Notes under the pieces: model-generated | Databases searched by the model: none | Told to the model about the DNA's origin: nothing | Seen by the model: only the letters and a program-made list of their open reading frames with translations | Made by a program: the position numbers and the translations under genes | IMG/VR virus record: IMGVR_UViG_3300028384_000937 | Location: 1 to 31,049 of that record | Reading direction: 5' to 3' (one strand) | Source: a virus | DNA: 31,049 nucleotides | In this document: positions 5,941-30,544 of the stretch, piece after piece | How positions within the stretch are numbered: the stretch's first letter is position 1 | How the letters are laid out: every line of letters begins with the position of its first letter

Positions 5941-5941
5941 T

Positions 5942-7335: not shown

Positions 7336-7340
7336 ACAAA

Positions 7341-7356: not shown

Positions 7357-7361
7357 ATTTT

Positions 7362-10568: not shown

Positions 10569-10573
10569 ATACA

Positions 10574-10581
10574 TATTTACC
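10574..10581 (-). promoter_or_regulatory. Late octamer GGTAAATA, 5 nt before ATG 10568
   Basis: Minus strand: GGTAAATA, TGTAT, ATG. It is separated by one base from the plus-strand octamer at 10583-10590, repeating the back-to-back arrangement of 7341-7356. It implies a leaderless mRNA and argues for the second of two possible start codons. Confidence 0.6.
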
Positions 10582-10595: not shown

Positions 10596-11273
10596 ATGGA
10601 ACTATACTTGAACCCCGCTTGGGATAAAATAGGTATTAGCCTTAGCGGCGGAGCCGATAGTGCGCTTCTTGCATTTTTAATCTGTTCGCAGACTGATGCT
10701 GATATACATTTTAATACACAGATACGAATGTGGAAAACTCGTCCATGGGCTGAGCATATTGCAGACAATGTAGTAGACTGGTTTAAAAATAACTTTGACA
10801 ATTACTTTTATCATCACAAAAACTTGGTTCCGCCTGAACTTGAAGAACCTACAGATTATCTTATAAAAGACGAATACGGCAAAATGAAATCTGGTAATAG
10901 AATTATACTAAGATCTCATAATGAATACATTGCTCATAAATTTAAATTAGATGCACTATACGGTGGCATAAATTTAAACCCAGATATAGAATTCGAAGGC
11001 AGAGTAAAAGAAAGAGACGAAGGACATATTCCTCCTCATTTTGTACACGATGGTATTGACATTTGTCATCCTTTCGTGTATACTAAAAAAGACTGGATCG
11101 TCAAGCAATACTATAAGCACGATATATTAGATTTGTTTAATATTACTAGAAGTTGCGAAGGTGAGTTTGATGATCTAAATTATAAAACATATACACCAGG
11201 ACAAGAAGTTCCAGAATGCGGAGAATGTTTTTGGTGTAAAGAAAGAGATTGGGCAATTGAACAAGCCAAATAG
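10596..11273 (+). CDS. QueC-like PP-loop ATPase
   Basis: The protein has 225 residues. The N-terminus carries the PP-loop SGGADS (17-22), which binds ATP pyrophosphate in N-type ATP pyrophosphatases. The C-terminus has a zinc site like that of 7-cyano-7-deazaguanine synthase (QueC): C187, then C208, C211 and C214 in PECGECFWCKER. The central region diverges from typical QueC, and no queD, queE, folE or tgt-like gene is in the window, so a different amidation or adenylation is possible. It heads the plus-strand operon, and its 3' end overlaps the first radical SAM gene by 17 nt. An adenylating step that prepares a carboxylate or carbonyl for the following enzymes is plausible (inference). Confidence 0.75.
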   Translation: MELYLNPAWDKIGISLSGGADSALLAFLICSQTDADIHFNTQIRMWKTRPWAEHIADNVVDWFKNNFDNYFYHHKNLVPPELEEPTDYLIKDEYGKMKSGNRIILRSHNEYIAHKFKLDALYGGINLNPDIEFEGRVKERDEGHIPPHFVHDGIDICHPFVYTKKDWIVKQYYKHDILDLFNITRSCEGEFDDLNYKTYTPGQEVPECGECFWCKERDWAIEQAK

Positions 11274-12528
11274 TTGCACATTTTGTATGCACCCTTTTAC
11301 AGGACTTGCTACACGAGAAGACGGTGCTATTAAAGTATGCTGTCGTAGTCAGCCTATTGGCTGGATACAGAACGAAAATTTAGAAGAAGCGTGGAACAAT
11401 GATACTATGCGTGAGGTACGTAGACAAGTATTAAACAACGAGCGTCCAGATGTATGCAAACCATGCTTTGACCTTGAAGATCAGGGTGTACAGAGCTTAC
11501 GACAGCGTCATACAGCAGGGGTAATACCCGAAGCTAGGGTCAACTTATACCCTGACGCATTAGACACTTTAGACGAAGATTACAGCATGCCTTTTGAGTT
11601 TCCTACAATGGAAATCAAACTCAATAATTTGTGTAATTTAAAATGTCGTATGTGTAATCCTTTAGATAGTACAAGTTGGAAAGATTGGGATCAAGTTACA
11701 GATTTTTATAAAAAAGAAAATAACTATCTTATTCCCACAGTAGATGCACTAGTAGACAAACCAGGGCAATACATTGGCCCGTTTGACAATTCAGACAACT
11801 GGTGGACAAGTTTTGAAAAATTGTTGCCTTACTTTCGCCGTGTTGAGTTTGCCGGTGGCGAACCTTTAATGGATCCTTATCACTATAAGATACTAGACAA
11901 ACTTGCAGAGTACGGTGATAACATAGAGCTAAAGTATGCTACAAACGGTACTACGCTAGGTATAAAAGGCGGACGTACAATACACGACTATTGGCCTAAG
12001 TTTAAATCAATCGCTGTAAACGTAAGCATAGACGGTATACACGATGTCTATGAGTACATTAGAGGCAATGGCAAGTTTAGTGAAATAGAAGAAAACATCA
12101 AAGTGTTTAAATCGTTTCCAAATGTGAGCAGGGTAGTAGGTGCATTTACTGTTCAAGCAAATAACATATTGCAAATTTGTGATGTAATAGACTACTTCAT
12201 AAATGACATGGGCATTGTTTTCTATTCGCATAGAGTAAACTATCCAATGTCACTATCTGCACAAGTACTTCCACCAGAACTAAAGAAAAAAGTTATAAAT
12301 GATTTAGAAGATATGAAGGAAAAGGTACTTGATTATAAATTAGTACAACAGCACGAATTACTAAAAACTGTAACACTACAACAGATACAAGACAACATTA
12401 ACTTTCTAAAAGCAAAATGTATGCACGACACACATTGGCAAGATTGTATAGAATTTAATCGTAGACTAGATAAAACTCGTGGGCAAGATTTTTTAGCGAC
12501 TAACCCGGAGTTTAAACTGTATGTATAG
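11257..12528 (+). CDS. Radical SAM protein, 'twitch' type (group 1)
   Basis: The protein has 423 residues from TTG 11257. No ATG precedes the first conserved Cys, and the frame needs this segment, so a TTG start inside the upstream gene is the best choice. An N-terminal auxiliary-cluster region has C7, C10, C28, C29, C67 and C70 (CTFCMHPF, VCCR, VCKPC). The radical SAM motif is C126-NLK-C130-RM-C133, with GGEPLM in the TIM barrel. The last segment ends with the NPEFKLYV element shared by its paralogs at 17661 and 24326. It should bind one SAM-cleaving [4Fe-4S] cluster and at least one auxiliary cluster. The substrate is unknown. It overlaps the next gene by 8 nt. Confidence 0.85.
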   Translation: MNKPNSCTFCMHPFTGLATREDGAIKVCCRSQPIGWIQNENLEEAWNNDTMREVRRQVLNNERPDVCKPCFDLEDQGVQSLRQRHTAGVIPEARVNLYPDALDTLDEDYSMPFEFPTMEIKLNNLCNLKCRMCNPLDSTSWKDWDQVTDFYKKENNYLIPTVDALVDKPGQYIGPFDNSDNWWTSFEKLLPYFRRVEFAGGEPLMDPYHYKILDKLAEYGDNIELKYATNGTTLGIKGGRTIHDYWPKFKSIAVNVSIDGIHDVYEYIRGNGKFSEIEENIKVFKSFPNVSRVVGAFTVQANNILQICDVIDYFINDMGIVFYSHRVNYPMSLSAQVLPPELKKKVINDLEDMKEKVLDYKLVQQHELLKTVTLQQIQDNINFLKAKCMHDTHWQDCIEFNRRLDKTRGQDFLATNPEFKLYV

Positions 12529-13417
12529 TGTAACAAGTCGTTGGCTTCATCAAGATTCAATTAAAGTAGAATGGAATATTGGCAAACGATGTAATTTAGA
12601 CTGCGGCTACTGTCCTGCTGAAATACACGATAATTTTAGTAGTCATACCAAAGTAAAAGTAATGACAGATACAATTGATGCACTAGCAGAAATAGGCAAG
12701 CCGATACGTCTAAGTTTTACAGGTGGCGAACCTTGTGTACACCCTTATATAATAGACATAATAGATCATGCTGCACAAAGAGTAGATTGGATCAATATTA
12801 CAACTAATGGAACCTTGCCGCATAAATTATATGCAAGACTACCAGTTAGTCATTATGTTTTTAGTTTACACTTTGACAACGAAGTTTGGGAAAAGACTAT
12901 TAACAATGTTCTTTACTTTGCACAACTAAATGAAATAGAACGGGGTATTCCGTTTCAAGTTAATTTAATGGCACATCACGAACACATGGAAAAAGTAAAA
13001 AGAGCAGCAATACTTTTTGACGGTCATCATATTTCGTATGTTGTTAGAAGAATACGATGGACTGAAAAGCATGACTGGTTCGACGACATGAAATACGATA
13101 CTAAAGATTTAGATTGGATTTTAGAACAAAAAGCTACTGCAAAAGAAAATTGTATAATCGACGACAAAGAATTAATGCATGCCAACGATATTATTAAACA
13201 TCACAAAAATCAATTTGAAGGATGGAAGTGTAATGCCGGCTTAGAAAGTTTAATGATCAATTGGGACGGCGAAGTTCATCGTGCTACATGCAGAGTAGGC
13301 GGGAGCTTAGGAAATATATACAAAGGAAGTTTCGAACTGCCAGAAGAGTCAATTATATGCACACGTAAATTCTGTACTTGTGCTGCTGATATTCCGCTAA
13401 CAAAGGTTAAAGAATGA
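12521..13417 (+). CDS. Radical SAM protein with C-terminal SPASM-like cluster (group 3)
   Basis: The protein has 298 residues; the ATG overlaps the preceding stop, with CGGAG upstream. The catalytic motif is near the N-terminus, C24-NLD-C28-GY-C31, preceded by VEWNIGKR. FTGGEP follows at about 64-69, and ITTNGT forms the next strand. The C-terminal part carries GWKCNAG, then a Cys in RATC, and CTRKFCTC, which together can ligate an auxiliary [4Fe-4S] cluster as in SPASM/twitch enzymes. It is compact compared with its relatives at 13414, 15678, 16717 and 20733. The next gene starts in an ATGA overlap. The reaction is unknown. Confidence 0.85.
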   Translation: MYSVTSRWLHQDSIKVEWNIGKRCNLDCGYCPAEIHDNFSSHTKVKVMTDTIDALAEIGKPIRLSFTGGEPCVHPYIIDIIDHAAQRVDWINITTNGTLPHKLYARLPVSHYVFSLHFDNEVWEKTINNVLYFAQLNEIERGIPFQVNLMAHHEHMEKVKRAAILFDGHHISYVVRRIRWTEKHDWFDDMKYDTKDLDWILEQKATAKENCIIDDKELMHANDIIKHHKNQFEGWKCNAGLESLMINWDGEVHRATCRVGGSLGNIYKGSFELPEESIICTRKFCTCAADIPLTKVKE

Positions 13418-14496
13418 TTAAAACATCTGCAATAAATTTAACTAATCCTGAACCTATGATGGTTACTTGGGACTTAGGCAGGCGCTGTAACTACGACTGT
13501 ACATACTGCGAAGCAAGTAGACATAATAATTCTAGTCCACATGCTAGTTTAGATTCTATGAAAAATACTTTTAATTTTATTCAGGACTGGACTAAAAAAT
13601 ACAATGCGTTTAAAAAAGATCCACAACATATTAATATAGATTTTACAGGAGGAGAACCTACCGTTAATCCGCAGTTTTGGGAGATTGTAAAATATATTAA
13701 ACAACATAAGGGTTATAATGTAGGTCTAACAACTAACGGTACATGGCCTGAAAAAGACATAGATAAAATTTCTAAATATATAGACGGCATTACTATTAGT
13801 TGGCATGCAGAAGCAGATAAAAAATTAAAAGACCGTGTATTGCACAATATACTCAAAGTTAAAGAACATGACATTTGGCTGCAAGTAAACGTTATGTTAC
13901 ATTGTGATTATTTTGAAGAAGCAAAAGAAGTGTGTGCATTTTTAAAAGAACACAATGTAAAATATAACCCAGTTCCAATCGGTGACGGTACTATTGCAAA
14001 AGCAGGCTGGTTTACTGATACAGACGGCGTGTTACGTAGAACAAGCCACGAATACACAGAAGAACAACAAGAATGGTTTTGGAACGAAATTGGTATCAAA
14101 GACAAGGCGCAGCGTCCGACACAAGGTACAGAAGTAGGACGTAAATGTTGCGGCGGTCGTTGCTTAGAAGGCTTAGTTGAAGACAGTTGGCAACCTGTAA
14201 AACTTGTTGAAAATAAATTTCAAGGATGGCATTGCATGATTGACTGGTTCTTTTTACACATTGATCAAGAAACTGGAAATGTATATCATCATCAAACTTG
14301 TCAAGCACGTAAAGACGGAACAGTTGGTCCGATAGGTAATTTAGATGATACTCGTAAAATGCTAGACGAAGCAAATATTAGTAAACCTATTATATGTCCT
14401 AATGCAAGATGCGGATGCGGAATGTGTATCCCAAAAGCTAAAGAGCTAGACAATTTTAAAAATATTTGGAATCGTATTACAACTGTTGAATTATAA
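13414..14496 (+). CDS. Radical SAM protein with extra CCGG cluster motif (group 3)
   Basis: The protein has 360 residues with an ATGA start overlap and AAAGG upstream. The catalytic motif is C25-NYD-C29-TY-C32 after VTWDLGRR, with FTGGEP and LTTNGTWP in the barrel. A central RKCCGGRCLEG and C-terminal GWHC, HHQTC, CPNARCGCGMC make about nine further cysteines, enough for one or two auxiliary clusters. It is clearly paralogous to the enzyme at 15678 on the other strand: both share GWHC, a GxVGPIGxLxDT block and an ICxxxxCxCGxCxPKAK end. The gene ends tail to tail with the minus operon, overlapping by 20 nt. Confidence 0.88.
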   Translation: MIKTSAINLTNPEPMMVTWDLGRRCNYDCTYCEASRHNNSSPHASLDSMKNTFNFIQDWTKKYNAFKKDPQHINIDFTGGEPTVNPQFWEIVKYIKQHKGYNVGLTTNGTWPEKDIDKISKYIDGITISWHAEADKKLKDRVLHNILKVKEHDIWLQVNVMLHCDYFEEAKEVCAFLKEHNVKYNPVPIGDGTIAKAGWFTDTDGVLRRTSHEYTEEQQEWFWNEIGIKDKAQRPTQGTEVGRKCCGGRCLEGLVEDSWQPVKLVENKFQGWHCMIDWFFLHIDQETGNVYHHQTCQARKDGTVGPIGNLDDTRKMLDEANISKPIICPNARCGCGMCIPKAKELDNFKNIWNRITTVEL

Positions 14497-15688
14497 AATT
14501 ATACTCAGGGAATACTTCTGCAAAGTTTTTATTTCTTCTCTTATCATACTCTTTTATAAAAGAAACTAGTTCTGCTGTTTTATCTGTTTTAACAGATGCA
14601 TGTGCTATTACTTGTTTGAATCGTTCTTGTGTTTCGTAAGGAAAATATTTTTTAATAAACTCTAGTTGTTCATACATATTATTCATCCATCCAGAAGGCA
14701 TTACCGAAGCACTCATAAAACTAGGATCTCTTACAGCACTAATACTAACCTTTACATTTTTAATATTTTTAATATCTGATAAAAATTGTTCAAAACTAGT
14801 AACACTAAAAATATTGTATGCGCACATTATGTTTAGATAAAAATGTTTTGCAACAATATCACAATTATTTCTCCAATAATCGTATACTAGCCCATCTCTA
14901 ACATATTCAGCCTTTTCTTTATATCCTTCACCGCTGGTTGCTATTTCTATCTTTTTAACACACTTCTTTATAGTTTTTAATAACTCGATATGTTTATCAA
15001 ATAGCATAGCAGGAATACCTAAATTACTATTAATAATAAGAGTAAGTTTTTTGTTAGGATTATATTTTATAAAATCAATTAAATCTTCAGTATGTCTACT
15101 CATAAAAGGCTCGCCGCCTGTAATGCGCAACACTTTTAAATTTTTATAGACTGTAGGAAAATATTTCCAAAAGGCATCTATATACGGATTTTGTTCCTTG
15201 TCTGGTATTTGTTCTACATGTATTCCGTTATAGTTATTAGGATAACTTCTTTGTTTTATTTCGCTATGCCACTTACTGCTATATTCTGGTCCGCAATATG
15301 CACAAGCAAAATTACAAACATTGCTAAAACTAATTTCTAAATATCTTGGATCGTAGTCTTGATCCCAAGGTGCGTTTTTAATTTTTAATAATTCTAATAG
15401 TCCATCTTTTTTACTCATTAATACACGATCGCCAGTAGTACCGTTAGCTTCAGCACTCCAACAATAATTACATTCACTAGGGCATGTGCCTTCTAGCATT
15501 TGTTTTCTAATTTGTTTTTTATAGTGTGTGTTGTGTATCGCTGATGGATTGTTTTTTATTTCGTGCAAGGGTATTGTGTGCGGATGAGGATGATGGCAAC
15601 TATGCGTTTTACCAATGCCAAGATGTATTGTACTATTAGTCCATTTAGCAGTACACATACTAGGTCCAAGGGCTAGTTTAGTTAACAT
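14477..15688 (-). CDS. Radical SAM protein, HSCHHP family (group 2)
   Basis: The protein has 403 residues. An N-terminal region carries C12 (MCTAKW), C31 in SCHHPHPHTIPL, and C69, C73 and C76 (TCPSECNYCW). The catalytic motif is C125-NFA-C129-AY-C132, followed by ITGGEPFM and a terminal YDKRRNKNFAEVFPEY. The same block order is found in the proteins at 27730 and 29162, so the three are paralogs; this one is shortest at the N-terminus. The Cys/His pairing before the barrel probably binds an additional metal cluster. It is the last gene of the minus-strand run, overlapping the preceding gene by 11 nt. The function is unknown. Confidence 0.87.
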   Translation of the reverse strand: MLTKLALGPSMCTAKWTNSTIHLGIGKTHSCHHPHPHTIPLHEIKNNPSAIHNTHYKKQIRKQMLEGTCPSECNYCWSAEANGTTGDRVLMSKKDGLLELLKIKNAPWDQDYDPRYLEISFSNVCNFACAYCGPEYSSKWHSEIKQRSYPNNYNGIHVEQIPDKEQNPYIDAFWKYFPTVYKNLKVLRITGGEPFMSRHTEDLIDFIKYNPNKKLTLIINSNLGIPAMLFDKHIELLKTIKKCVKKIEIATSGEGYKEKAEYVRDGLVYDYWRNNCDIVAKHFYLNIMCAYNIFSVTSFEQFLSDIKNIKNVKVSISAVRDPSFMSASVMPSGWMNNMYEQLEFIKKYFPYETQERFKQVIAHASVKTDKTAELVSFIKEYDKRRNKNFAEVFPEYNFIIQQL

Positions 15689-16727
15689 ACTTTAACATAA
15701 TCCTATCATAATCTTCTTTGCTTTTTGCTTTTGGCGCACATAATCCGCACCAACAACTTTTCTTTTTACAAATAATAGTAGAAGTATTAATATTATCTAA
15801 GATAGATTTTGTATCTGACAGATAACCAATAGGTCCTACTTTACCATCGTAATTCATTTTACAATCTTTGTTTGTAAACACTTCTCCTGTATTTTGCTTG
15901 ATATACAAAAAGAATTTGTTAACACTACAATGCCATCCTTTAAAATTATTACCTTTTATATATTTTGTAGAATCGCATGTATTAGTACACATTGTCATAT
16001 TACCACAACATGCTCTGCCACTTGATGATAAGTCTATTCCTTTAGCAATGAGGCCGCCTATTTTTTCTATTGTGCTAGGAGCAGATCCTGTAAGATAAAC
16101 ACTTTGCTCACTATTATAGTTAAATCTAAAATCTAAAATATCGTGATCAATTTGTCTCGGATTGTAGTCAACATCATTTTGTTTACACCATTCTACCATA
16201 TCAACACAGGTTTGCCAATATTTTGGATGCATCATTATGCTTACATGTAAGGGCTTATTATGCTCTTTTAAATACAATATATTTTGCCTAACTTGCTCTT
16301 GTTGTGCAACCGTGCTTTCTGCATGAAAACTTATAGTAAAGTAATCTACATTATCTATTATTCTAGCCCACAATTTAGGTTTAACAACAGCATTAGTAAT
16401 TGTACTAATACTCATGCTCCAAGGAACTTGTGTTTTCTTGTGCTGTGCATATTTTAGTATTTGTATTATTTGTGGGTGATAAAAACTTTCGCCGCCAAAT
16501 ATATTTAAATTTGCGTGTTGTAAATGTTTAGGTTTTTTTGATAGTTGTATATTTGTATAATCAAAAATAAAATCAAGTGTATCTAAACTATCTGCTACAC
16601 TAGGATGCGGCAAACTGTTATCATGGCCGTCGCCACAATATGAACAGTCAAGATTACACTTTAGAGTAGTTTCCCACTCTATTGAGAAGTAATTATTATC
16701 TACTGGCTCAAGTGTATTAAATTGCAT
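15678..16727 (-). CDS. Radical SAM protein, paralog of the 13414 enzyme (group 3)
   Basis: The protein has 349 residues from ATG 16727; a TTG three codons earlier is possible. The catalytic motif is C24-NLD-C28-SY-C31. The barrel has FGGES where most relatives have GGEP. A central RACCGNMTMCTNTC and a C-terminal GWHC, KDC, ICKKKSCWCGLCAPKAK provide many auxiliary ligands. It matches the plus-strand paralog over its whole length, with extra cysteines in the middle cluster. The gene overlaps both neighbours (11 nt each side), so it is in the same polycistronic unit. The reaction is unknown. Confidence 0.87.
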   Translation of the reverse strand: MQFNTLEPVDNNYFSIEWETTLKCNLDCSYCGDGHDNSLPHPSVADSLDTLDFIFDYTNIQLSKKPKHLQHANLNIFGGESFYHPQIIQILKYAQHKKTQVPWSMSISTITNAVVKPKLWARIIDNVDYFTISFHAESTVAQQEQVRQNILYLKEHNKPLHVSIMMHPKYWQTCVDMVEWCKQNDVDYNPRQIDHDILDFRFNYNSEQSVYLTGSAPSTIEKIGGLIAKGIDLSSSGRACCGNMTMCTNTCDSTKYIKGNNFKGWHCSVNKFFLYIKQNTGEVFTNKDCKMNYDGKVGPIGYLSDTKSILDNINTSTIICKKKSCWCGLCAPKAKSKEDYDRIMLKYVN

Positions 16728-17664
16728 ATTTTTCAATTACCGTTTCTTCGCTACAAACACACAAATCTCTATTACAGATTAAAGGTTTGATAATAGGATT
16801 ATAAGATTCTATAAAATTAGGAGTATACAAGTTACCAAATAGCCTTTGTTGGCAATTTCCAGTTATTCGTCCGTCAGGAAATATCTTTATAAAATCTACA
16901 CCAAGATTACATTTCCAGCCTTTAAACTTATTCAATCTGTTTGATATAAGATAATTGTCATTGTTAACTGTAATAACTTCGTCACTGTATATTTTAACTT
17001 CTCTCAGCGGCTTGCGTGTAGTAGATTCAAACCATTCCTTTATAGGATACTGCTTTATAGTATCTTGAAAGTATTCTAGTTGTTCTTGTGTATATCTATG
17101 ATCGCCGTCGAAATGTACTATCTTAGCAATGATAGGCCAGTTGTGTTTTCCTGTTTTTAGTTTTTCTACTATTTCTAAACATTCATCAAATGCTGCTGGA
17201 TCCATTAGTGCATCAGCATTTACAAAAACACCCTGCTCATATAGAGTATCGCAAACATCAATTAGATGTTCAACATTTGCAAATTCTCTATGTACACTCA
17301 CTTCTACATGATCAAAGTTTTTTGCATTCTTTTTCCACCAATCAATTTTACGTGTACCATTTGTACTAATTTCTATTATAATATCATGTCTATCTTTTAG
17401 GTACTGACAAAGTTCTTCAAGACCCTTCCAAAGGGTTGGCTCGCCGCCTACAATATATAAGTTGCTTTTAGTCTTGCCATTCTTTTCATACTGTGTGAGC
17501 AAGTGAGATAAGTTTTGTTTAACAACATTAACATCCGGCCAGGCGATACTACCTTCGTTGCTTCCGGGAAAACAATAATAACACTTATGGTTACAAGTAT
17601 TTCCTGGCATATATTCTATACGTACTAGATCAGGATCTTGGTTATTTTCAATTCGTGTAATCAT
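16717..17664 (-). CDS. Radical SAM protein (group 3)
   Basis: The protein has 315 residues; the ATG overlaps the upstream stop as ATGA. The catalytic motif is C24-NHK-C28-YY-C31 after RIEYMPGN, with VGGEPTLW and ISTNGTRK in the barrel. The C-terminal region has FKGWKCNLGVDFIKIFPDG, GNC and CNRDLCVC, which is the same layout as the enzyme at 12521 (a single SPASM-like cluster). The GWKCNLG block followed by a beta-hairpin 'IFPDGRI' is typical of SPASM/twitch regions. The substrate is unknown; context places it in the same pathway as its neighbours. Confidence 0.86.
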   Translation of the reverse strand: MITRIENNQDPDLVRIEYMPGNTCNHKCYYCFPGSNEGSIAWPDVNVVKQNLSHLLTQYEKNGKTKSNLYIVGGEPTLWKGLEELCQYLKDRHDIIIEISTNGTRKIDWWKKNAKNFDHVEVSVHREFANVEHLIDVCDTLYEQGVFVNADALMDPAAFDECLEIVEKLKTGKHNWPIIAKIVHFDGDHRYTQEQLEYFQDTIKQYPIKEWFESTTRKPLREVKIYSDEVITVNNDNYLISNRLNKFKGWKCNLGVDFIKIFPDGRITGNCQQRLFGNLYTPNFIESYNPIIKPLICNRDLCVCSEETVIEKYAI

Positions 17665-19076
17665 AATAAATGTGCCAATTCTGGAAATACTGTTTTAGCA
17701 TTTACACCTCTAATAGCATCTAGCTTATTTGTATATTCTTTAAAGCCTGGTAATAGATAACTATTATCCTGTGCGTTCATATGTTTTAGTACTGCCTCCC
17801 AACGTTTCCAACCGTATGGATTAACTTTCCAATAATCGTCGTCTTGTCTATAGTTCTTCCACAACCAATCTTTAAAGTCCATAAAACGTTCTTCTACTTC
17901 CTGTTTATCTTCTTTAGGAAGTATTTGTATGCTCAAGAATGTAGGAATATAAAGCAAATGCATGTTAACTAGTCCACCGCCCATTTGTACTCCGCCCGGA
18001 ACATTGCCACTATTTAACTTTTTAAATCCGCTTTCAACTTTCCATTTCATAAAGTCAGGCAAATGCTTTACATTAAAAATTTGTATTGCTGTTGCTAAAC
18101 TAGTTTGTATATTATCAGGAGTGTTGTCTAGCATATGCAGGGTACGTTCTACAGTTTCAAAGTCAGTAGGATAACGTATATACTCGTCACGTTCGTGGCA
18201 TGCGTCCATACTTACTGCAAATTTAACTTTTTTAAATTTACTCCATAACTCAATTAAATCTTCGTCTACAAGAAGTCCATTAGAATTATAGCGTAATAGT
18301 ATTTTGTCTTGATAACCTTGACGCACTATTTCTTCAATAAACTGTTTATGTTCTTTAATCATTAGTGGCTCACCGCCGGCAAAGTATACCTGCTTTAGGT
18401 TAGGTATCTGCCTATACATTTCTTCCCAAAAAGTATCTTTTTCGTGCCACTTATTATTAAACTCACTTTTATCCCACTGCATTTGCTGCTTGACATTGTT
18501 GTCTTGTAGAACAGGAATAAGTTGTTGCCAGTCTTTAACCCACTTACTACTATCATGTGGACTACACATAACACATTTGATATTACAAGTATGTCCTAAA
18601 CGTAAATCTAAATATACTAACTCTTCCGGTACTGTGCCGTCTTCTTGTGTTTGCTTTATAAGTTCGGGAATATCTACACCATCTTCGTCTCGATGCCAAG
18701 TTCCGCTTTCCCAAATGCGCTTACTTACAACACCTACCTTTTCTTCTTCAAAACATTTACGACAACTAGCAGGTATTTCTCCGGCAAGCATTGTACGTCT
18801 TACACTTTTCATGTATTCGTTGTTCCAGGCTTCCATAGGTGTTTCACGACCAAAGTTTGCAGGCTTGCCGTGCTCCATTTTAACAAGGCCTACTTCGTGA
18901 TCATTACCTGCGCCGCTTGCGTTTGCACTACAGCATAAACGCATATCGCCGTTGGGTCTAGTTGCAAAATGTATCCAGGGCAAAACACAAAACGTAGGCG
19001 TACCAGAGACACTTTCTAGTTCTCTTTGATATTTTCCTAGTTGCTCATTTTCTGGTTTGTACCACCATTTATTCAT
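17661..19076 (-). CDS. Radical SAM protein, 'twitch' type (group 1)
   Basis: The protein has 471 residues. The N-terminal cluster region contains C30 (TFCVLPWIHFATRPNG), C48-C49 (LCCS), and C105 and C108 (SCRKC). The catalytic motif is C164-NIK-C168-VM-C171 in LRLGHTCNIKCVMCSPHDSS, then FAGGEPLM and a YNSNGL strand. It is paralogous to the enzymes at 11257 and 24326 (same FC..P...CC...C..C prefix and xxPEL-type end), with a longer N-terminus (about 25 residues) than the former. The ATG overlaps the preceding gene by 8 nt. It is expected to bind at least two iron-sulfur clusters. The reaction is unknown. Confidence 0.88.
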   Translation of the reverse strand: MNKWWYKPENEQLGKYQRELESVSGTPTFCVLPWIHFATRPNGDMRLCCSANASGAGNDHEVGLVKMEHGKPANFGRETPMEAWNNEYMKSVRRTMLAGEIPASCRKCFEEEKVGVVSKRIWESGTWHRDEDGVDIPELIKQTQEDGTVPEELVYLDLRLGHTCNIKCVMCSPHDSSKWVKDWQQLIPVLQDNNVKQQMQWDKSEFNNKWHEKDTFWEEMYRQIPNLKQVYFAGGEPLMIKEHKQFIEEIVRQGYQDKILLRYNSNGLLVDEDLIELWSKFKKVKFAVSMDACHERDEYIRYPTDFETVERTLHMLDNTPDNIQTSLATAIQIFNVKHLPDFMKWKVESGFKKLNSGNVPGGVQMGGGLVNMHLLYIPTFLSIQILPKEDKQEVEERFMDFKDWLWKNYRQDDDYWKVNPYGWKRWEAVLKHMNAQDNSYLLPGFKEYTNKLDAIRGVNAKTVFPELAHLL

Positions 19077-22383: not shown

Positions 22384-22389
22384 TATATA

Positions 22390-22418
22390 ATTATACCACC
22401 TTTTTTATAATTTGTCAA
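22390..22418 (-). promoter_or_regulatory. Consensus sigma70 promoter with start codon at +1
   Basis: Minus strand: TTGACA (22418-22413), 17 bp, TATAAT (22395-22390), then TATATA and ATG (22383). Both hexamers are perfect consensus. The normal -10 to +1 distance puts the first transcribed base on the A of the ATG. The -35 box includes the TGA stop codon of the preceding gene. It can restart transcription of genes from 22383 to 14477. Confidence 0.9.
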
Positions 22419-23380
22419 CCGTAATCTTTTAGGCTAAAGTTTGTGCCTAACATATGATACGGGGTTGCTGTTTTATCATTACTCCAAACTAGCACTTCAG
22501 GATCGTCATATAAAAAGTCGCAGTTTTTGCAATATTCTATACTATCAAAGTCTTTCATTTCGTGTGCTTTGCGAAGTTTATTATATTCGTCTCCGTACCA
22601 TATTTCTTCTATAGTCTGATTTTGTACATGCCCTAGCACACTTTTACTTTCGTTTGGCGGGCCCATTGTTTGACAACATGGTGTAACTGCGCCTTTTAGT
22701 CCACCGTTACCTCCGCTGCGAATTGTAATCTCTGGTGCAAAAGGGCGGCCACATGTTCTACGCTGACTAGGATCTCTAACATAGAGTGGCTGATAATTTC
22801 CACTCCAGTTATGCATTTTCCAAATATAACCTATAGTACCTGTCGGTCCTATAAAGTTATTCCTATATTGATCAACTTCGTATTCTACTTGATTGTTATC
22901 TAGTATTAGATGGTAACTGCTTACTACGCATTTACTATTAGTTTCTTTGATGTATTCTTTAGCCTTTACTATGTTTGTTTTCAATAAATCAAAATTATCT
23001 ATTGCCATCCATTCTTTATATTTTTCTTTATTGTATCCTATACAACTAAACCTAGCAAAACTCAAGCCTGCATCAATACATTCTTGCATAAAGTGACCAC
23101 TAAAGAAGCTACCATTGCTATACATAAAACTAGGAAAGCCACGCTTAGTACATTCTTCAATATACTTAGGCAGGTCCTTGGCCATTGTAGGTTCGCCACT
23201 ACCTTCTAAATTAATAACAGGTTTACCTGGCAGTTGCTCAAGTATGTTAATAAACATATCCATAGGCATTTTACGTGTCCATTCTTTACCCCTTCCGGTA
23301 GTCTGTGGACACATTTGACACTTGTAATTGCATCCGCCGAATACTTCTACTACTGCACGTTCTAACTCAGGTACACTCAT
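22415..23380 (-). CDS. Radical SAM/SPASM protein (group 4)
   Basis: The protein has 321 residues from ATG 23380, which overlaps the upstream stop as ATGA and has GGGG 6 nt before; a GTG four codons earlier is possible but not preferred. The catalytic motif is C17-NYK-C21-QM-C24. The GGE element is LEGSGEPTM. The C-terminus is a classical SPASM layout: CGRPF, VTPCCQTMG, the LGHVQNQTIEEIWYGDEYNK block and EYCKNCDFLYDDPE. Enzymes with this architecture include peptide-modifying maturases, but others act on sugars or cofactors. Its stop codon lies inside the -35 box of the next promoter. Confidence 0.88.
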   Translation of the reverse strand: MSVPELERAVVEVFGGCNYKCQMCPQTTGRGKEWTRKMPMDMFINILEQLPGKPVINLEGSGEPTMAKDLPKYIEECTKRGFPSFMYSNGSFFSGHFMQECIDAGLSFARFSCIGYNKEKYKEWMAIDNFDLLKTNIVKAKEYIKETNSKCVVSSYHLILDNNQVEYEVDQYRNNFIGPTGTIGYIWKMHNWSGNYQPLYVRDPSQRRTCGRPFAPEITIRSGGNGGLKGAVTPCCQTMGPPNESKSVLGHVQNQTIEEIWYGDEYNKLRKAHEMKDFDSIEYCKNCDFLYDDPEVLVWSNDKTATPYHMLGTNFSLKDYG

Positions 23381-24345
23381 TCTTGTCCCCACTTATTCCA
23401 TATTTCTGTAAGAAGATTAATATAGGCGTCATCATTATGTCTAAAGTCATATTCTATTCTTTTATTATTATACTCAATACTATAAAAGTCTGTATACTCT
23501 TTAAAAAAGTCTTGTGCATTACTGTCAGATAAATCTACTACTTTGCCAACCGGAGCATAACCTAATGCAAGTTGTTCATCTTCAGGATCTACTCCTTTGC
23601 TTTCTAGCCAAGTACTAAATTTTTCATCTCTAGGTAAATCAATACCTGTACCGAAGTAACAATTAAACTCTCCGCTGATTACTCTATGCTCTGAGATTCC
23701 GTCTGCTTCTACAACTTCGTCATTATCTAAATATGCTTCATACCATGTTTTTCCAGTTTGCGCATAGTGCAAATATACCATTCCGTCGTCAATGTCTTTT
23801 ACAAACTGTTTTTTAAACTTAGGATCCAACTCTATTCTATCTTGTATGCCTAATAAATTATAATAAAAATATCCGTTACGATATCCGTCTTTTTTAATAT
23901 TCTCAGTTTCATACCATGCTTCTAGTTCGTGACAACAATGATTTAAATAACAAATTGCAAGCCTAGTTGCACCATTTGTATTTGCTAATACACTGCTAGG
24001 ATTCCATAATTGACCCTGTGTTACTTCAAAATGGTGATGAAGAATATTTAATAACTCTTGATCGCATGTATTACGCAAAGGTCCAAAATTTTCAGTAATG
24101 CTATAATCTGTATAATAGTTAATAGTAGCAACACTTCTATCTAAATCATTACAAATATGATCTAGAGTTCTATCTTCGTTATGAAATCCTAGTAAGCTAA
24201 AGTTCTTTTGAAATATTTTCTTTTTATGTGTAGTTAACAAATAGTCAAATTGCTTTAACCATACTTCTGCTAATTCTGAATCATTAGGTTGAATATGTAT
24301 ATACTCTATTTTATTGTCAATATTTCTAAACCCAAGCTCTATCAT
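23377..24345 (-). CDS. Unknown 322-residue protein within the radical SAM cluster
   Basis: No family recognised. The sequence is acidic, with a helical central part rich in His and Cys (LLNILHHHFEVTQGQLWNPS and CYLNHCCHELEAWYE), which could bind a metal. The C-terminal half has beta-rich segments (MVYLHYAQTGKTWYEAYLDN, FNCYFGTGIDL). There is no signal peptide, membrane segment, CxxxCxxC or nucleotide-binding loop. It overlaps the 694-residue fusion gene upstream by 20 nt and the next radical SAM gene by ATGA, so it is surely co-expressed. It could be an enzyme, a scaffold or a substrate-binding partner. Confidence 0.75.
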   Translation of the reverse strand: MIELGFRNIDNKIEYIHIQPNDSELAEVWLKQFDYLLTTHKKKIFQKNFSLLGFHNEDRTLDHICNDLDRSVATINYYTDYSITENFGPLRNTCDQELLNILHHHFEVTQGQLWNPSSVLANTNGATRLAICYLNHCCHELEAWYETENIKKDGYRNGYFYYNLLGIQDRIELDPKFKKQFVKDIDDGMVYLHYAQTGKTWYEAYLDNDEVVEADGISEHRVISGEFNCYFGTGIDLPRDEKFSTWLESKGVDPEDEQLALGYAPVGKVVDLSDSNAQDFFKEYTDFYSIEYNNKRIEYDFRHNDDAYINLLTEIWNKWGQE

Positions 24346-26410
24346 GAAAACCCTTTACTATTTGCTCTGCATGTGCTAGTTGCGATTTAATTCCTGGATG
24401 CATTTTATCTCTTGCACACTTATCGTCAATGTTAGGAAATGGATTTAAAGTATTTTTAGGATACATTAATTCGCATAATTCGTTACACGGATGATCCCAG
24501 GAACTAAACAAAATTTCTACTCCGTGTGCTTGAGCACAATCATATATCCAATTAATAGATGACACTGCACGATTAATATAGTAATCGTCGTCTACTATAT
24601 CAAATATTTCATTTAATTTTTTAAAACCGTTATGTGGATATCCTGGTATAAGATTAATAATTTTTCCGTAATCGTTTATGTCAATGTGTAATTGTCTATA
24701 CCAGGCCGGCAATGTTACTACTGCAAAATCTAAATCTATTACATTATTTGCTGCTGCAAAAGTTCTTGCTACACGTTCAACTGATGATCCGCCGATGCCA
24801 AAGTTAAAAGGATTTAAATTTAATTTTTCGCTAGATAGATTTACGAAAGTGTCTTTGTATTCGATACCTTCGCCAAATGTAAAACTACAACCAAAATATC
24901 CTACTTTCAGTTTATCTGATTCAAAGTCCCAGAGGCCTCTATAATAATACTTATTAAACTTGTATTTCCAATCATCATCAGATACGTTTTCTTCTTCAAA
25001 TGCATTTACTGCTTTAACAGATACTGTATCTGTATAGTCAAACTTATTTACAACTTCTCTATGTGCAGACCCGTAATGTCTCAAGTCTTCTAAAGTTTGT
25101 ACTGTTGCCGGAGCAGCAGGTAAAAAAGTTTTTAATGCATCTCCTCTAAACATTTTTAACTCCGGATTTAATGCAAATACATCAGTGCCGCGTACATCGT
25201 CAATTTGTTTGCTTTTCCATTTAAACTGATTCCACAACATGCTCTTATCTTCTTGATACATAAAGTCGATAATGCTTTGCCAGCCGCTAAATGGAATACC
25301 TGTATCTGCTTCTAATTTTTTACCGTACTTTGTAATCTTATCAGCAGCTTGTTCTTTTAACAATTCAGGCAATACAGTAATACTATAGTAGTTAGGTGTA
25401 AACAACGGATTAATATGAAACCTATCAACCCAATAATTTTCCATATAGAAGCCTCTCTGGGGATGTATAGCTTCTAAAGGAATAAGATCATTTTTGTGCA
25501 ATTCTTCGTGTAGTTCTGTAATACGGAAAATATTTAAAATACTTACAGTAGGATGGAACCAGTAATCTGCAACACCACTTGCCCTAATCTTTTTCAAGTT
25601 TTCTAAAGTACTGGGCCATTTGCCTTTGTATCTAATATGTTCAAATGCATCGCCTGCTCCGTCGATACTAAGACTCAAATGTACATATTTAAATTTCTTC
25701 CAGTAGTCAAGTATATTTTCTTTACCCTTGCCTAGTGTTGTACCGTTAGTACTATAACGCAACTCAACATCGTACTTCTTCTTTTCATCTAACATTTTAA
25801 GTATACGCCAGTGTTCAGGCATAATTAAAGGTTCGCCGCCTGCAAAATGTATTTCTTCCATAGTGTCAATATTGTCTTCAATATCATCCCAAAATACATT
25901 TGCTTCTGTTAAATCAATAAGTTTAGTTTCACTATACTTGTCTGCACCCGGATGAAGTTTTTGAAAGTCGTTAGCCCACTGTGTACTAAACAGCGGTGAA
26001 CAAGTTGTACATGCAAGGTTGCAATAATTGCTAAATCTAAAGTCCCAATACTTTAATTGAGGTTTAGGTATACTGCCGTCATCTGCTGTACTAGCAATTA
26101 AATCTTTTGTCTTATCAAACCATTTTGAATTTAATCCAGTACGCATAGTATTCATATTATGATTTTGCTTGGCAACACAACGCTCACATGCACTAGGCAA
26201 CGGTTTGTTATCTAGCATATCTTTTCTCATTTTCTTTGCTGCGTCACTGTTTACTACTTCATCTAATGTTTGTGTTTTAACATTTCCAAAACTATTTTCA
26301 TCACGTAACGGTGTTTGACAGCAAGCAAACGAACGCCCGTCATTAATAACATGTAAGTGCATCCAAGGTGCTACACAGAAATTAGGACTATTTTTTAGAT
26401 CATCACTCAT
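24326..26410 (-). CDS. Radical SAM - SGNH-hydrolase-like fusion protein (group 1)
   Basis: The protein has 694 residues from ATG 26410 (AGAGA upstream; a TTG five codons earlier is possible). Residues 1 to about 440 are a twitch-type radical SAM protein: C12, C30-C31, C75 and C78 prefix clusters, catalytic C130-NLA-C134-TT-C137, FAGGEPLI, and a DVFALNPELKMF end equal to its paralogs. A linker follows, then an SGNH/GDSL-like domain from about 500: YFGCSFTFGEG with S509 as nucleophile, FGIGGSS as the oxyanion Gly block, VVTLPAWYR at block III, and D668-KM-H671 as the DxxH pair. The block III Asn is not evident. Such domains hydrolyse or transfer acyl groups, often on carbohydrates. Confidence 0.85.
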   Translation of the reverse strand: MSDDLKNSPNFCVAPWMHLHVINDGRSFACCQTPLRDENSFGNVKTQTLDEVVNSDAAKKMRKDMLDNKPLPSACERCVAKQNHNMNTMRTGLNSKWFDKTKDLIASTADDGSIPKPQLKYWDFRFSNYCNLACTTCSPLFSTQWANDFQKLHPGADKYSETKLIDLTEANVFWDDIEDNIDTMEEIHFAGGEPLIMPEHWRILKMLDEKKKYDVELRYSTNGTTLGKGKENILDYWKKFKYVHLSLSIDGAGDAFEHIRYKGKWPSTLENLKKIRASGVADYWFHPTVSILNIFRITELHEELHKNDLIPLEAIHPQRGFYMENYWVDRFHINPLFTPNYYSITVLPELLKEQAADKITKYGKKLEADTGIPFSGWQSIIDFMYQEDKSMLWNQFKWKSKQIDDVRGTDVFALNPELKMFRGDALKTFLPAAPATVQTLEDLRHYGSAHREVVNKFDYTDTVSVKAVNAFEEENVSDDDWKYKFNKYYYRGLWDFESDKLKVGYFGCSFTFGEGIEYKDTFVNLSSEKLNLNPFNFGIGGSSVERVARTFAAANNVIDLDFAVVTLPAWYRQLHIDINDYGKIINLIPGYPHNGFKKLNEIFDIVDDDYYINRAVSSINWIYDCAQAHGVEILFSSWDHPCNELCELMYPKNTLNPFPNIDDKCARDKMHPGIKSQLAHAEQIVKGFHDRAWV

Positions 26411-27737
26411 ATTGCATCTCTTCAAATAAGATTATAAATTTTCGCTTGTTAGGCTTACTATAAAACTTTTCTCTATTCTTTTTTAAAAACGGCTTTATTC
26501 CGTTTATTTTATCTTGTATCTCGCTTTCGCTCAATTCTTTTAACATTTTTAAATTATTACAGATTAACTCAGATGTTTTTGTAGTACTAGTAACCCTATC
26601 ATAACTTTCATTAACCAGAACGTTACTTGAAAAATAACTTTGATCTGTAATATAACCAATTGTATTTAAACAACCTAGTACCATGAAGGGGTGTCCTTTG
26701 GCTATTTGTAACCAAGTAAGTATACCCGGAGACAGAACATTTACTTCTTCTAAATAGTTTTGATCTAGCATAGGCATCCAAGAATCACTTACAATGTTAA
26801 TTAAACTATCTTCGTAAAAAGATTTATGAATGTAAAAGTTATTACCTTTGTTACGAATCTGATCAATTGTCATATCCATAATTACAGTTTTGCTTATAGT
26901 ATTTTTTACTAGTTCCTTTTTTTGCTTTACAAATAGTTCGCCTTTGGACTTATCAGTTATACGAAAATCTTTGTAATTATGTTTAATATCCTCGTATTCT
27001 ATATTGTAACTATATTTTCCATCTTTATCAAGCTCATGATATTTTAAATCAGATACAAAACATGTATTATGCAGTTTAGCCCTTCCGGTAAATGCTGAAT
27101 ACAATCTTTTAGGATTCCAGTCGTCAACTTCGTACATTTCCTTTTTTAACTGTTCCTTGCCAATAGGATACGAAGCAAAGTTATTATATACCCAACGATA
27201 GTCCTTCATACCATAACGAGATAGTAGAGTTATTTGTGTATAAATTTGCCACCAATCGATTCCATATACGTGCTTTGTGTTTAATAATGTTCTATAAGAC
27301 TTGCTAATATCTCCTAAAACAATATACACTTGATCCCTTGGCATACCTGATCCTTCTAAAAAATCAAGTTGCTTTCGTAATTTCCAAATATATCTATAAT
27401 CATGAGAAACCTTAGGTAATAAAATTAATAGTTTCATTTTACCTTTTGCGATTCTATTAAATGATTTGTTAGGAATAATGTCTGCAAGATTGTCGTTGCT
27501 TATTTTAACAAGTTCTAACGGATAAAATAAATTTTTTGTAGTTTCTTTTCCAGAAAATAATTGATAATTACAGCCCAGGGCTTTTAGAGAATTAAAAAAG
27601 AATGTACCTTTAGATATGATTGTTTCTTTAGTACCTAGCGGAATACGGTGGGAATCTTTAGTAAACTCCCAGTCGTTAATTCCATTAGGTATCGGAACTT
27701 CTGATTCTGCCAAATTATCATAATACAAGTTAATCAT
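26403..27737 (-). CDS. Glycosyltransferase-like phage protein, putative
   Basis: The protein has 444 residues. The N-terminal half is helical with a strand pair (MKLLILLPKVSHDYRYIWKL, DQVYIVLGDIS). The C-terminal half contains DWNPKRLYSAFTGRAKLHNT and SLINIVSDSWMP, then LSPGILTWLQIAKGHPFMVLG, a pattern I associate with a phage glycosyltransferase-like family in which a KxxxPxxxxHPfIvvG block follows the strand before a nucleotide-sugar site. No DxD is decisive. It lies between two radical SAM genes and overlaps both by 8 nt. It could act on the same glycan or molecule as the other glycosyltransferase-like gene; the assignment is tentative. Confidence 0.5.
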   Translation of the reverse strand: MINLYYDNLAESEVPIPNGINDWEFTKDSHRIPLGTKETIISKGTFFFNSLKALGCNYQLFSGKETTKNLFYPLELVKISNDNLADIIPNKSFNRIAKGKMKLLILLPKVSHDYRYIWKLRKQLDFLEGSGMPRDQVYIVLGDISKSYRTLLNTKHVYGIDWWQIYTQITLLSRYGMKDYRWVYNNFASYPIGKEQLKKEMYEVDDWNPKRLYSAFTGRAKLHNTCFVSDLKYHELDKDGKYSYNIEYEDIKHNYKDFRITDKSKGELFVKQKKELVKNTISKTVIMDMTIDQIRNKGNNFYIHKSFYEDSLINIVSDSWMPMLDQNYLEEVNVLSPGILTWLQIAKGHPFMVLGCLNTIGYITDQSYFSSNVLVNESYDRVTSTTKTSELICNNLKMLKELSESEIQDKINGIKPFLKKNREKFYSKPNKRKFIILFEEMQYE

Positions 27738-29178
27738 ATTTTGCCAATGGCTCGTCTATATTTGTATTATCAGGTTTTAATATCCAGCCCTCTTTTTCAG
27801 CAAGTTCCATAATACTTGCATCGGTATCCGGAATACTTTCTACCCAATCTGTTAGAATTTTAGGAAATACACTTAGACTTTTGTTTCTGCGTACATCATA
27901 CTGTGCGTAAAATGTTTTAAAGTCTCTCCATAGTGTTACAGGATTACTTGTACGCCTGTGTGGAGCATCTACTGTAACAAGATAATCTATTAATCGTTCT
28001 ATACTTGCCTTTTCAAATTCGTGCCAACCTATATCATTTTTTCTTCTTTCCCACCATGCACTAATTTGACTATGTAAATGATCTTTAATATGATTAGGAA
28101 GTGCTAAAGGACTTTGAAAACTCGGAAAACGTAATAAGTTTACACTTACTGTGGGTGTTCTACTCTGTGTAAGTTCTTTTAACTTATATACTTCATCTAA
28201 GAAATCTGTAATAGTAAACAAACATAAACTATTAATAGTCATCATAATGTTTACACCATTACAATTACCTTCAGTTAAAATACGTTTGATATTCTTTAAC
28301 CATAATTCGTAGTCTAGTCCGTCACGAATATATTCTGCTTGCGCACCTGTTGCTTCACAACTAGTATACAGATCAAAGTGCTTCATACCTTGAGTTTTTT
28401 CGATTAGTTTATCAATAATGGCATCCTTTGCAATAAGGTTGCTGTTAATTGCAAAACGCATATCTGTGTCTTGCTCGTTAAACCAATCAAACAATTTCCA
28501 AGTATTTGCACTCATTAAAGGTTCGCCGCCTGTAACACGTAATTCTTGTAAACTATCGCTTAGACCATTTTCCCACCATTTCCAAAAGGCTTGAATATAC
28601 GGGTTGTCTTCATCGTCCTTGTAAGGTTGCGCCCATGAACCGTCTTGATGGAAAGCTCCGGCACCGTCGGATACCAAGTTCTCATACGGCCCATTATTCT
28701 TGATGTCTTTTGCCCAGGTGGTAGAGAAGGAAGCGTTACAGTAACTACACGCAAGGTTACACACCCTATCAAAAGCAATCTCAAAAGTTTTGAGGTTAGT
28801 ATTTTCGTTTGCATCTGCTTCATATGCTTGTTGTAATTCTTCATCAGTGTAAATAATGCTTTTAAACGTCCTGTCACTTACAGCATCTTTACCCATGTCT
28901 TCCATCTTCCAGCAATATTCACACTCGCGAGGACGCTCGCCATTCTGCATCATACGGCGCATTTCTTTTTTATGCTCTGTATTATGAATTGCTGTATAGT
29001 TGTTTTCTACTTCAACTAATGGAATTTTATGAGCCGGCGGGTGATGACAACTTGCAGTTGTACCGCTGCCTAACCATGTAGTTGCGTTAAACCATTTGGC
29101 TCCGCAGAAACTTTTACTTTTACTATCTAGTACTCTATCCCTATACTGTTGTAGGGTTTCATCAGGTTTCTTCGCCAT
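27730..29178 (-). CDS. Radical SAM protein, HSCHHP family (group 2)
   Basis: The protein has 482 residues; GAGG lies 6 nt before the ATG. The N-terminal block has C25 (SFCGAKW), C44 in ASCHHPPAHKIPL, and C86 and C89 (RECEYCWKMEDMG). The catalytic motif is C140-NLA-C144-SY-C147, then VTGGEPLM, INSNL and a terminal YDVRRNKSLSVFPKI. It is a paralog of the proteins at 29162 (same length of prefix and nearly the same motif positions) and 14477. An extension of about 25 residues after the shared end is unique. It overlaps the preceding gene by 17 nt. The reaction is unknown. Confidence 0.88.
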   Translation of the reverse strand: MAKKPDETLQQYRDRVLDSKSKSFCGAKWFNATTWLGSGTTASCHHPPAHKIPLVEVENNYTAIHNTEHKKEMRRMMQNGERPRECEYCWKMEDMGKDAVSDRTFKSIIYTDEELQQAYEADANENTNLKTFEIAFDRVCNLACSYCNASFSTTWAKDIKNNGPYENLVSDGAGAFHQDGSWAQPYKDDEDNPYIQAFWKWWENGLSDSLQELRVTGGEPLMSANTWKLFDWFNEQDTDMRFAINSNLIAKDAIIDKLIEKTQGMKHFDLYTSCEATGAQAEYIRDGLDYELWLKNIKRILTEGNCNGVNIMMTINSLCLFTITDFLDEVYKLKELTQSRTPTVSVNLLRFPSFQSPLALPNHIKDHLHSQISAWWERRKNDIGWHEFEKASIERLIDYLVTVDAPHRRTSNPVTLWRDFKTFYAQYDVRRNKSLSVFPKILTDWVESIPDTDASIMELAEKEGWILKPDNTNIDEPLAKYD

Positions 29179-30544
29179 TCCATTCCTCTAATAAGTTAAC
29201 ATACTGTGGAAAAGTTTCTCCAAAGTTTTTGTTTCTTCTTTTGTCATATGCGTTTATATATTTTACAAAGTCTTGTCTATGCTCTATTGCTGTTTCTGTT
29301 GTACGTAAGTAATCACAAAAACGCTGTATTTGATCAAACTCTTCTAAGTATATTCTAGCATACTTGTCTTTCTTATAATACTTTAGCCATGCTTCGCAAA
29401 ACTTTTCGATAGTATCTGCTTGAGGTATTCTATCTTCTTTATCTAGCATTGTACATTGTAAATGCGGCGGCCAATGCATTGTATTAATACTTAGCGGTAT
29501 TCTATTGACCTCAAAACTTTTATTGTATTCTTTTCTAAAGTCTATTACAGTCATAATAAAATCAATAAAAGACGGTAAACTAAGAATGTTTATTGTAGTC
29601 ATAATTGCTACTGTTGACTGTGTTTGCTTTAAAATTTTATCTATGTTATCTAGCCATTTTAAATAATCCAAACCGTCCCTAGCATATTCTGCTTGTAAGC
29701 CTGTGCTTTCAAGACTTGTATAGATATCAACTTTGACGCCTTTTTTGTGTAATATATTAACTTTTGCAATTAAATGCTCTATTAGAGTATCTGTTACACA
29801 CCCATTTGTATTAATTGCTACGTCTAAGCCTTTCCGTGGATTTTCGATTAGATAGTCTAATAACTTCCAAGTATCTTTTGACATAGTAGGTTCGCCGCCG
29901 GTAACACGGAGTACTTTTAGATGAGGTAATGCATCCGGAAACCATTTCCAAAATGCTTCTACATAAGGATTATGGTCGCTGTTTTTATAAGGCATCTTTC
30001 CAGAAGACTTTAAATAATCTAAATTATGAGCTCCATGTTTAGTTGGATATTGACCGTTTTGTTTTATATCTTCCATCCACTTTGAACTAATCTCGGGAGA
30101 ACAGTATGCACATGCAAAGTTGCAAGCATTTGAAAAACTTACTTCAAGATAACTAGGATAAACATTTTCGCCAGGGTCGCTTTCTGCAATTTCCTCAAAT
30201 CTATCCCAAGCCCAGGTATCAGCTGTTTTATAGTGTCTATCACTAAAATAATCTTTACCTAAATCTTCTATCTTCCAACAATAACTACATTCGCTAGGAC
30301 GTTCTCCCATAAGCATCTTTAGTCGTTGTTCTTTTTTATATTGACTATTATGCAATGCCGCAGGATCTGCTTTTATTTCTTCAAGCGGAATCTTATGTGG
30401 TGCAGGATGATGACAACTATGATTATATCCGTTTTGAAGCATTAGTGTAGTCTGCAACCATTTAGCCGTGCAGAAACTACAACTAACGTTGTTTATCTTT
30501 TCACGTTTTTCTTCTAGTATTTTTATGCGCTGTTCGTTACTCAT
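29162..30544 (-). CDS. Radical SAM protein, HSCHHP family (group 2)
   Basis: The protein has 460 residues and an ATGA start overlap. N-terminal C22, C25 (SCSFCTAKW), C44 (HSCHHPAPHKIPL), and C86 and C89 (SECSYCWKIEDLGKD) precede the catalytic C141-NFA-C145-AY-C148. VTGGEPTM and INTNG follow, with YDKRRNKNFGETFPQY at the end. The shared IPLxEI, LHNxxYKKEQR and SDRxxK segments make it the closest relative of the 27730 protein. It is the first complete gene of the minus-strand operon. No promoter is visible between it and the chimeric frame upstream. Confidence 0.88.
   Translation of the reverse strand: MSNEQRIKILEEKREKINNVSCSFCTAKWLQTTLMLQNGYNHSCHHPAPHKIPLEEIKADPAALHNSQYKKEQRLKMLMGERPSECSYCWKIEDLGKDYFSDRHYKTADTWAWDRFEEIAESDPGENVYPSYLEVSFSNACNFACAYCSPEISSKWMEDIKQNGQYPTKHGAHNLDYLKSSGKMPYKNSDHNPYVEAFWKWFPDALPHLKVLRVTGGEPTMSKDTWKLLDYLIENPRKGLDVAINTNGCVTDTLIEHLIAKVNILHKKGVKVDIYTSLESTGLQAEYARDGLDYLKWLDNIDKILKQTQSTVAIMTTINILSLPSFIDFIMTVIDFRKEYNKSFEVNRIPLSINTMHWPPHLQCTMLDKEDRIPQADTIEKFCEAWLKYYKKDKYARIYLEEFDQIQRFCDYLRTTETAIEHRQDFVKYINAYDKRRNKNFGETFPQYVNLLEEWNGEET

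Follow-up and report, generated by a model that had tools for sequence, protein, structure and literature searches.

A virus-borne island of thirteen radical SAM genes in a T4-like setting: a possible phage glycan-tailoring pathway

Radical SAM (rSAM) enzymes are usually found as one to three per pathway, which raises the question of what thirteen of them might do together in a phage-like genome. The window analysed here is the whole 31,049-base stretch that makes up IMG/VR record IMGVR_UViG_3300028384_000937. Searching it with the PF04055 profile gave 13 matches between 11,257 and 30,544; 12 of these were above the curated cut-off, and the thirteenth, ORF31, was identified as an rSAM gene through NF033640 (302.8 bits vs. 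a cut-off of 170). The CxxxCxxC motif is present in all 13, so the number and the motif given in an earlier note on this DNA were borne out by the profiles. That note had placed the run at 10,596–30,544, of which the end stands, while the rSAM genes begin only at 11,257, since 10,596 is the start of a PP-loop gene. Their summed length is 15.9 kb (51% of the window), in agreement with the earlier estimate of about half.

The genes fall into different classes. Class A comprises six genes (ORF16, 19, 22, 29, 31, and 32) with an N-terminal twitch/SPASM architecture, all of which match NF033640 over their full length with 287–397 bits (cut-off 170). ORF18, 20, 21, 23, 25, and 27 reached only 28–48 bits with this profile, under its cut-off, and NF033640 was not among the families listed for ORF17. 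Class B (ORF17, 18, 20, 21, and 25) is recognized in alignment A2 by a C-terminal NxFxGWxC followed by more conserved cysteines. The two genes outside these classes are ORF23, which has another C-terminal cysteine set, and ORF27, which has a C-terminal SPASM domain.

11257..12528, + strand: ORF16, rSAM R1, class A (N-terminal twitch); NF033640 8.7e-100
12521..13417, + strand: ORF17, rSAM R2, class B; PF04055, alignment A2
13414..14496, + strand: ORF18, rSAM R3, class B, 14 Cys; PF04055, alignment A2, Cys conservation
14477..15688, − strand: ORF19, rSAM R4, class A; NF033640 2.5e-85
15678..16736, − strand: ORF20, rSAM R5, class B, 15 Cys; PF04055, alignment A2, Cys conservation
16717..17664, − strand: ORF21, rSAM R6, class B; PF04055, alignment A2, Cys conservation
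17661..19076, − strand: ORF22, rSAM R7, class A; NF033640 1.1e-118
19069..20148, − strand: ORF23, rSAM R8, other class; PF04055, C-terminal Cys set
20733..21749, − strand: ORF25, rSAM R9, class B; PF04055, alignment A2, Cys conservation
22415..23392, − strand: ORF27, rSAM R10, C-terminal SPASM; PF13186 2.7e-11
24326..26425, − strand: ORF29, rSAM R11, class A, fused to a C-terminal SGNH-hydrolase-like domain; NF033640 8.5e-110
27730..29178, − strand: ORF31, rSAM R12, class A; NF033640 3.9e-90
29162..30544, − strand: ORF32, rSAM R13, class A; NF033640 2.3e-96

Three of these genes lie on the + strand and ten on the − strand, and their 3′-ends converge at 14,477–14,496, therefore the array must consist of at least two transcription units. 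ORF29 has an N-terminal SPASM match, its SGNH label comes from reading of the sequence, and its R11 and SGNH parts are two separate genes in the related 60-kb contig G011. The most widespread rSAM gene is ORF22, which matched 170 viral contigs. In the ortholog groups (15–114 sequences), conservation of the three rSAM cysteines is 96–100%, and no group has fewer than four additional conserved cysteines (at least nine for ORF18 and ORF20), as the earlier note had supposed in ascribing additional cysteine-rich regions to all 13 proteins. The second cysteine set of each enzyme could hold at least one auxiliary Fe–S cluster, and ORF18 and ORF20 perhaps have two auxiliary sites each. Judged from these ligand sets, the 26 or more clusters proposed before appear to be a fair minimum capacity of the array.

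Five further genes stand beside or between the rSAM genes:

10596..11273, + strand: ORF15, PP-loop ATPase, QueC-like; phrog_1550 1.6e-8, PF06508 weak (0.001)
20141..20743, − strand: ORF24, methyltransferase-like; sequence reading, homologs in 109 of 153 loci
21706..22383, − strand: ORF26, glycosyltransferase-like with GT-A style DxD; sequence reading, family in 63 loci
23377..24345, − strand: ORF28, phage-only family; predicted model, pLDDT 85.5
26403..27737, − strand: ORF30, GT-B glycosyltransferase fold; predicted model, pLDDT 90.4, Foldseek E 8e-5

ORF15 has an SGGxDS motif and four cysteines (Cys187/208/211/214) that are 98% conserved. The Pfam search gave no match for ORF24 or ORF26. The model of ORF28 resembles a cyclophilin-like barrel weakly (Z 7–8.9 to cyclophilins by VIA-align) and has a helical insertion; Foldseek returned no PDB match for it at E below 0.4, and ten phage proteins represent this family in BFVD. 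The model of ORF30 aligned with a fucosyltransferase (Z 12.4) and with T4 beta-glucosyltransferase (BGT, Z 12.1).

Could the array be bacterial DNA joined to a phage contig? The suspicion has a basis at the end of the window, where the last ~315 bases (~30,730–31,049) belong to a bacterial gene for a YejA-like substrate-binding protein, which matches a Vibrio plasmid copy at 66%. The junction with a phage glycosyltransferase-like gene is in frame and falls at DFEWLNN, a short sequence common to both. Foreign DNA is limited to this chimeric end and the array is untouched by it. G011, a contig independent of the window, retains 12 of the 13 rSAM genes with their order unchanged; in the contigs G006 and G010 many of them are found together with ORF01–05. 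The island is also present in IMG/VR contigs from other metagenomes. As the array is collinear in independent contigs, one of which has T4-like portal, capsid, and sheath genes, a misassembly was refuted for 1–30,730 and its probability is practically negligible. Recurrence of the same gene set in order, which the earlier note had called for, was thus found, and its two refuting cases, a bacterial misjoin and genes occurring independently and never together elsewhere, both fail. The note had also argued that tight overlaps imply joint function. Overlaps by themselves are weak evidence because phage genes commonly overlap; conserved neighbours and selection are better arguments for it. The phage setting and the co-occurrence given in the note hold.

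The phage setting rests on the genes adjoining the island and on longer relatives. ORF01 and ORF02 are phage backbone markers next to the island; ORF02 was matched in 753 phage records and is 85% identical to the G006 copy. The flanking features are as follows:

730..2058, + strand: ORF02, DUF2201 metallopeptidase/VWA protein; PF13203 3.2e-39
3615..4790, + strand: ORF06, tail-fibre-type protein with Mtd_N domain; PF18454 2e-9
4848..10574, strand ".": ORF07–14, island satellite genes (2OG-oxygenase-like, kinase-like, epimerase-like, GT-like)
30541..30745, − strand: ORF33 part, C-terminal piece of a glycosyltransferase-like protein, ~300 aa in relatives

Most of ORF07–14 have homologs in the islands of G006, G009, and G010; ORF11 matched PF05118 (1.3e-14), and the names of the others come from the sequence itself. 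Rfam and tRNA scans gave no match, and none of 50,697 phage records was hit when the array was searched by megablast. The window is too short to show the T4 marker genes, thus the T4-like assignment was made through homologs of the gp20 portal, gp23 capsid, and gp18 sheath on the 169-kb G006 (phrog_213, phrog_138, and phrog_10581, respectively). In its capsid protein, G006 shares 72% identity with the Sinorhizobium jumbo phage Phosso and 67% with PA5oct (Arenbergviridae). Three other array carriers (G005, G007, and G008) gave far stronger gp23 profile matches than G006, therefore the array is probably shared by at least two T4-like lineages. Across 32 related records the rSAM counts ranged from 1 to 15, and related phage contigs of up to 169 kb had 7–17 rSAM genes.

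Comparison of the window with G011 gave dN/dS values of 0.025–0.15 for the shared rSAM genes; the genes are real and under strong purifying selection. In a tree of 72 class A proteins, each of the six window copies fell into its own cross-phage ortholog clade, therefore these copies are old, distinct, and non-redundant paralogs rather than recent tandem duplicates. That a single phage island keeps thirteen old paralogs under selection implies a pathway that is long, costly, and active during infection.

Since no part of alignment A1 was sufficiently conserved to scan genomes with, bacterial relatives were sought through class B alone. The class B motif with tblastn confirmation detected 501 relatives in viral contigs, compared with four matches in 84,980 bacterial and archaeal genomes. 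Two of the four lie on contigs that also carry phage gp23 and 16–18 rSAM matches (L302–L307 and L308–L316, filed in GTDB as Gammaproteobacteria and Chloroflexi MAGs) and another on a 3.5-kb contig; these three look like misbinned phage, and a bacterial origin of class B seems unlikely. By profile, the two gp23-bearing contigs have 16–17 rSAM genes. The fourth match is in a Halobacteriovoraceae MAG, where the gp23 search was negative. Class B thus appears almost confined to viruses, and its product and chemistry may be new. Class A, checked in 14 control genomes, was over cut-off in none of them.

Direct evidence covers the genes, motifs, conservation, selection, neighbourhood, and phage location; the sugar substrate, reaction types, step order, and biological role in what follows are what we infer. 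The enzymes probably take part in making or modifying an unusual sugar coat (or virion protein). Among the peptide, glycan, and nucleoside products that the earlier note had considered, the glycan is favoured: the island may well encode, at close to an even chance, a glycan-tailoring pathway of the phage, placed where a T4-like myovirus has its host-recognition (tail-fibre) genes. The glycosyltransferases (ORF26, ORF30, ORF33, and the GT8-like genes of relatives) would assemble or attach an oligosaccharide. Each rSAM enzyme would reduce SAM at its CxxxCxxC cluster, with auxiliary clusters probably serving substrate binding or electron transfer, and the 13 enzymes could then alter the sugars step by step through redox, epimerisation, or C-substitution reactions. 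Finishing the glycan would fall to the methyltransferase, the SGNH-type enzyme, and the 2OG-oxygenase-like enzymes, and the product might decorate the surface of the infected cell, blocking competing phages, or the fibres of the phage itself.

This reading draws on the gene order, the purifying selection, and the non-redundant paralogs described above, and on the neighbourhood. In a circular-shift test, glycosyltransferase-like families lay close to rSAM genes in 24 of 40 cases vs. 9.5 expected, and 2OG-oxygenase-like, methyltransferase-like, and PP-loop families were also enriched; the enrichment is biased, as the neighbour families were picked from loci chosen around rSAM genes. Nucleotide-sugar enzymes alone, likewise from rSAM-chosen loci, gave P=0.054. 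Of 153 loci, 50 have the PP-loop gene and up to 79 have glycosyltransferase-like families. Genes for NAD epimerase and UDP-glucose/GDP-mannose dehydrogenase were found in relatives only. Glycosyltransferases lie inside the cluster itself (the GT-B fold modelled for ORF30, and GT8 in Vibrio phage K566), the fusion in ORF29 links rSAM and SGNH activities, and the island adjoins tail-fibre genes as in the pelagimyophage host-recognition cluster. Several characterised twitch/SPASM enzymes act on sugars (BtrN, NeoN, HygY, and AviX12); their domain plan and likely chemistry are similar, but they are single genes in bacterial antibiotic clusters and have no close sequence match in the window. Several points count against a glycan: no window rSAM gene was above the cut-off of a characterised sugar-acting family, twitch/SPASM domains are familiar mainly from enzymes that mature peptides, the ORF30 fold is equally near to the DNA-modifying T4 BGT and the fucosyltransferase, and rSAM-type arrays adjoin peptide-like genes in two relatives.

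The chief rival is protein modification. The rSAM enzymes might modify virion proteins (tail fibres, Cys-/Gly-rich adhesins) or a RiPP-like peptide encoded elsewhere in the genome, introducing thioethers, cyclophanes, epimers, or C-methylations, with sugars attached to the same protein by glycosyltransferases and hydroxylases. We consider this somewhat unlikely. The twitch/SPASM architecture of class A, the SPASM domain of ORF27, and the weak cyclophilin-like fold of ORF28 agree with it, and it gains weight from G010, where a window-like array is accompanied by a second one, in which nine CxxxCxxC genes adjoin two small peptides; contig C1 of G034, with three rSAM genes close to a (CDCDYCT)-repeat protein, and proteins of 287–320 aa with 32–38 Cys in G003 and G006 point the same way. 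It loses weight because the window array has neither room for a precursor (its genes overlap or abut, with a largest gap of 31 bases) nor a PqqD/RRE domain: PF05402 was absent from the window and over cut-off in none of 16 records (the window and 15 related), in a profile search that a divergent RRE could escape. Moreover, the giant virion proteins adjoining the island are Cys-poor, and the rSAM-like family of the peptide-linked arrays is a different one. A DNA or nucleoside hypermodification, in which the QueC-like ATPase, rSAM, 2OG-oxygenase-like, and GT-B enzymes build an anti-restriction base, is improbable: a QueC-like PP-loop gene does stand beside rSAM genes in several relatives and ORF30 does align with T4 BGT, but the island lies among tail-fibre rather than replication genes, ORF15 is weakly QueC-like, and the window has no QueD/QueE set (no QueE match over cut-off). 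We know of no base-modification pathway with as many as thirteen rSAM enzymes. Small-molecule or anti-defence products, such as viperin-like nucleotide analogues, or a contribution to auxiliary host metabolism are slightly more improbable still. The pVip profiles matched the SAM-binding half of seven window enzymes (up to 6e-18), but these matches span the first 70–180 residues, common to rSAM enzymes, and the C-terminal cysteine sets represent a different domain. The best viperin score, 58.3 bits against the NF038283 cut-off of 180, led us to reject this identity.

How much of this was known? According to the earlier note, no phage pathway of this size had been described. By gene number this does not hold, as the environmental T4-like genome TARA_ERS488813_N000010 has 12 rSAM genes (Nishimura et al., 2017, PMC5332604). 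It is likewise a marine T4-like phage, but the genes were reported as a count among Fe–S proteins together with an A-type carrier, with no island, classes, orthologs, or pathway (PMC5332604). The A-type carrier (PF01521) was absent from most records searched and was not found in G001, G003, G006, G009, G010, G011, and G012. The host-recognition islands of pelagimyophages, which are also T4-like, are hypervariable and carry tail fibres, glycosyltransferases, and rSAM cassettes (Zaragoza-Solas et al., 2020, PMC7029224); as regards the glycosyltransferases, these islands likewise point to glycan tailoring in the host-recognition region. They differ in that the G006 capsid is closest to jumbo phages, and HTVC008M itself gave one rSAM match. 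Neither paper describes a pathway, and in the open-licence literature no such arrays were described beyond these two. NCBIfam NF033640 (twitch domain-containing radical SAM protein) is a sequence family without assigned function. Vibrio phages K566/K567 have class A rSAM genes interleaved with glycosyltransferases, but only five of them, at ~20–25% identity, and no class B; in the 255-kb K566 genome the only two GT8 genes both lie inside this cluster. K566 is thus a candidate named phage with a smaller version of the island, suited to testing. The searchable literature yielded nothing on the conserved ordered set, the three classes, the almost exclusively viral distribution of class B, the peptide-linked arrays, or the link to GT8 in K566. 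It is possible, if rather doubtful, that a dozen non-redundant, virus-restricted rSAM enzymes work as an assembly line on one substrate and that RiPP-like peptides are a further product of this phage group, made with rSAM arrays of their own. If true, this would mean a viral surface chemistry not known from cells.

Several of the proteins mentioned above are worth describing. The two G010 peptides end in CHxSCHYSCHGSRGRR, and the peptide-plus-array unit recurs in 16 viral contigs. In L179:10101-10858 (G010 110101-110858) and L332-L347, proteins of ~120–145 aa, often two in tandem, end in CHxSCH(Y/x)SCH(G/T/A)SRGRR; downstream of them lie CxxxCxxC rSAM-like genes, at least five on contigs of sufficient length. 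These units may represent a RiPP-like phage system. The repeat protein of G034 contig C1 (L312:18878-19411, 98878-99411 of the contig) has 177 aa with C-terminal (CDCDYCT)-type repeats and is followed by the three rSAM genes within ~9 kb; this phage contig had been binned as a Chloroflexi MAG. The Gly- and Cys-rich proteins (G003 39569-41499 and 62897-63853, G006 143148-144011) are located in the structural gene region. Finally, G006 has a 5,287-aa ORF adjoining the island (66130-81993), with counterparts of 4,000–5,300 aa in several relatives.
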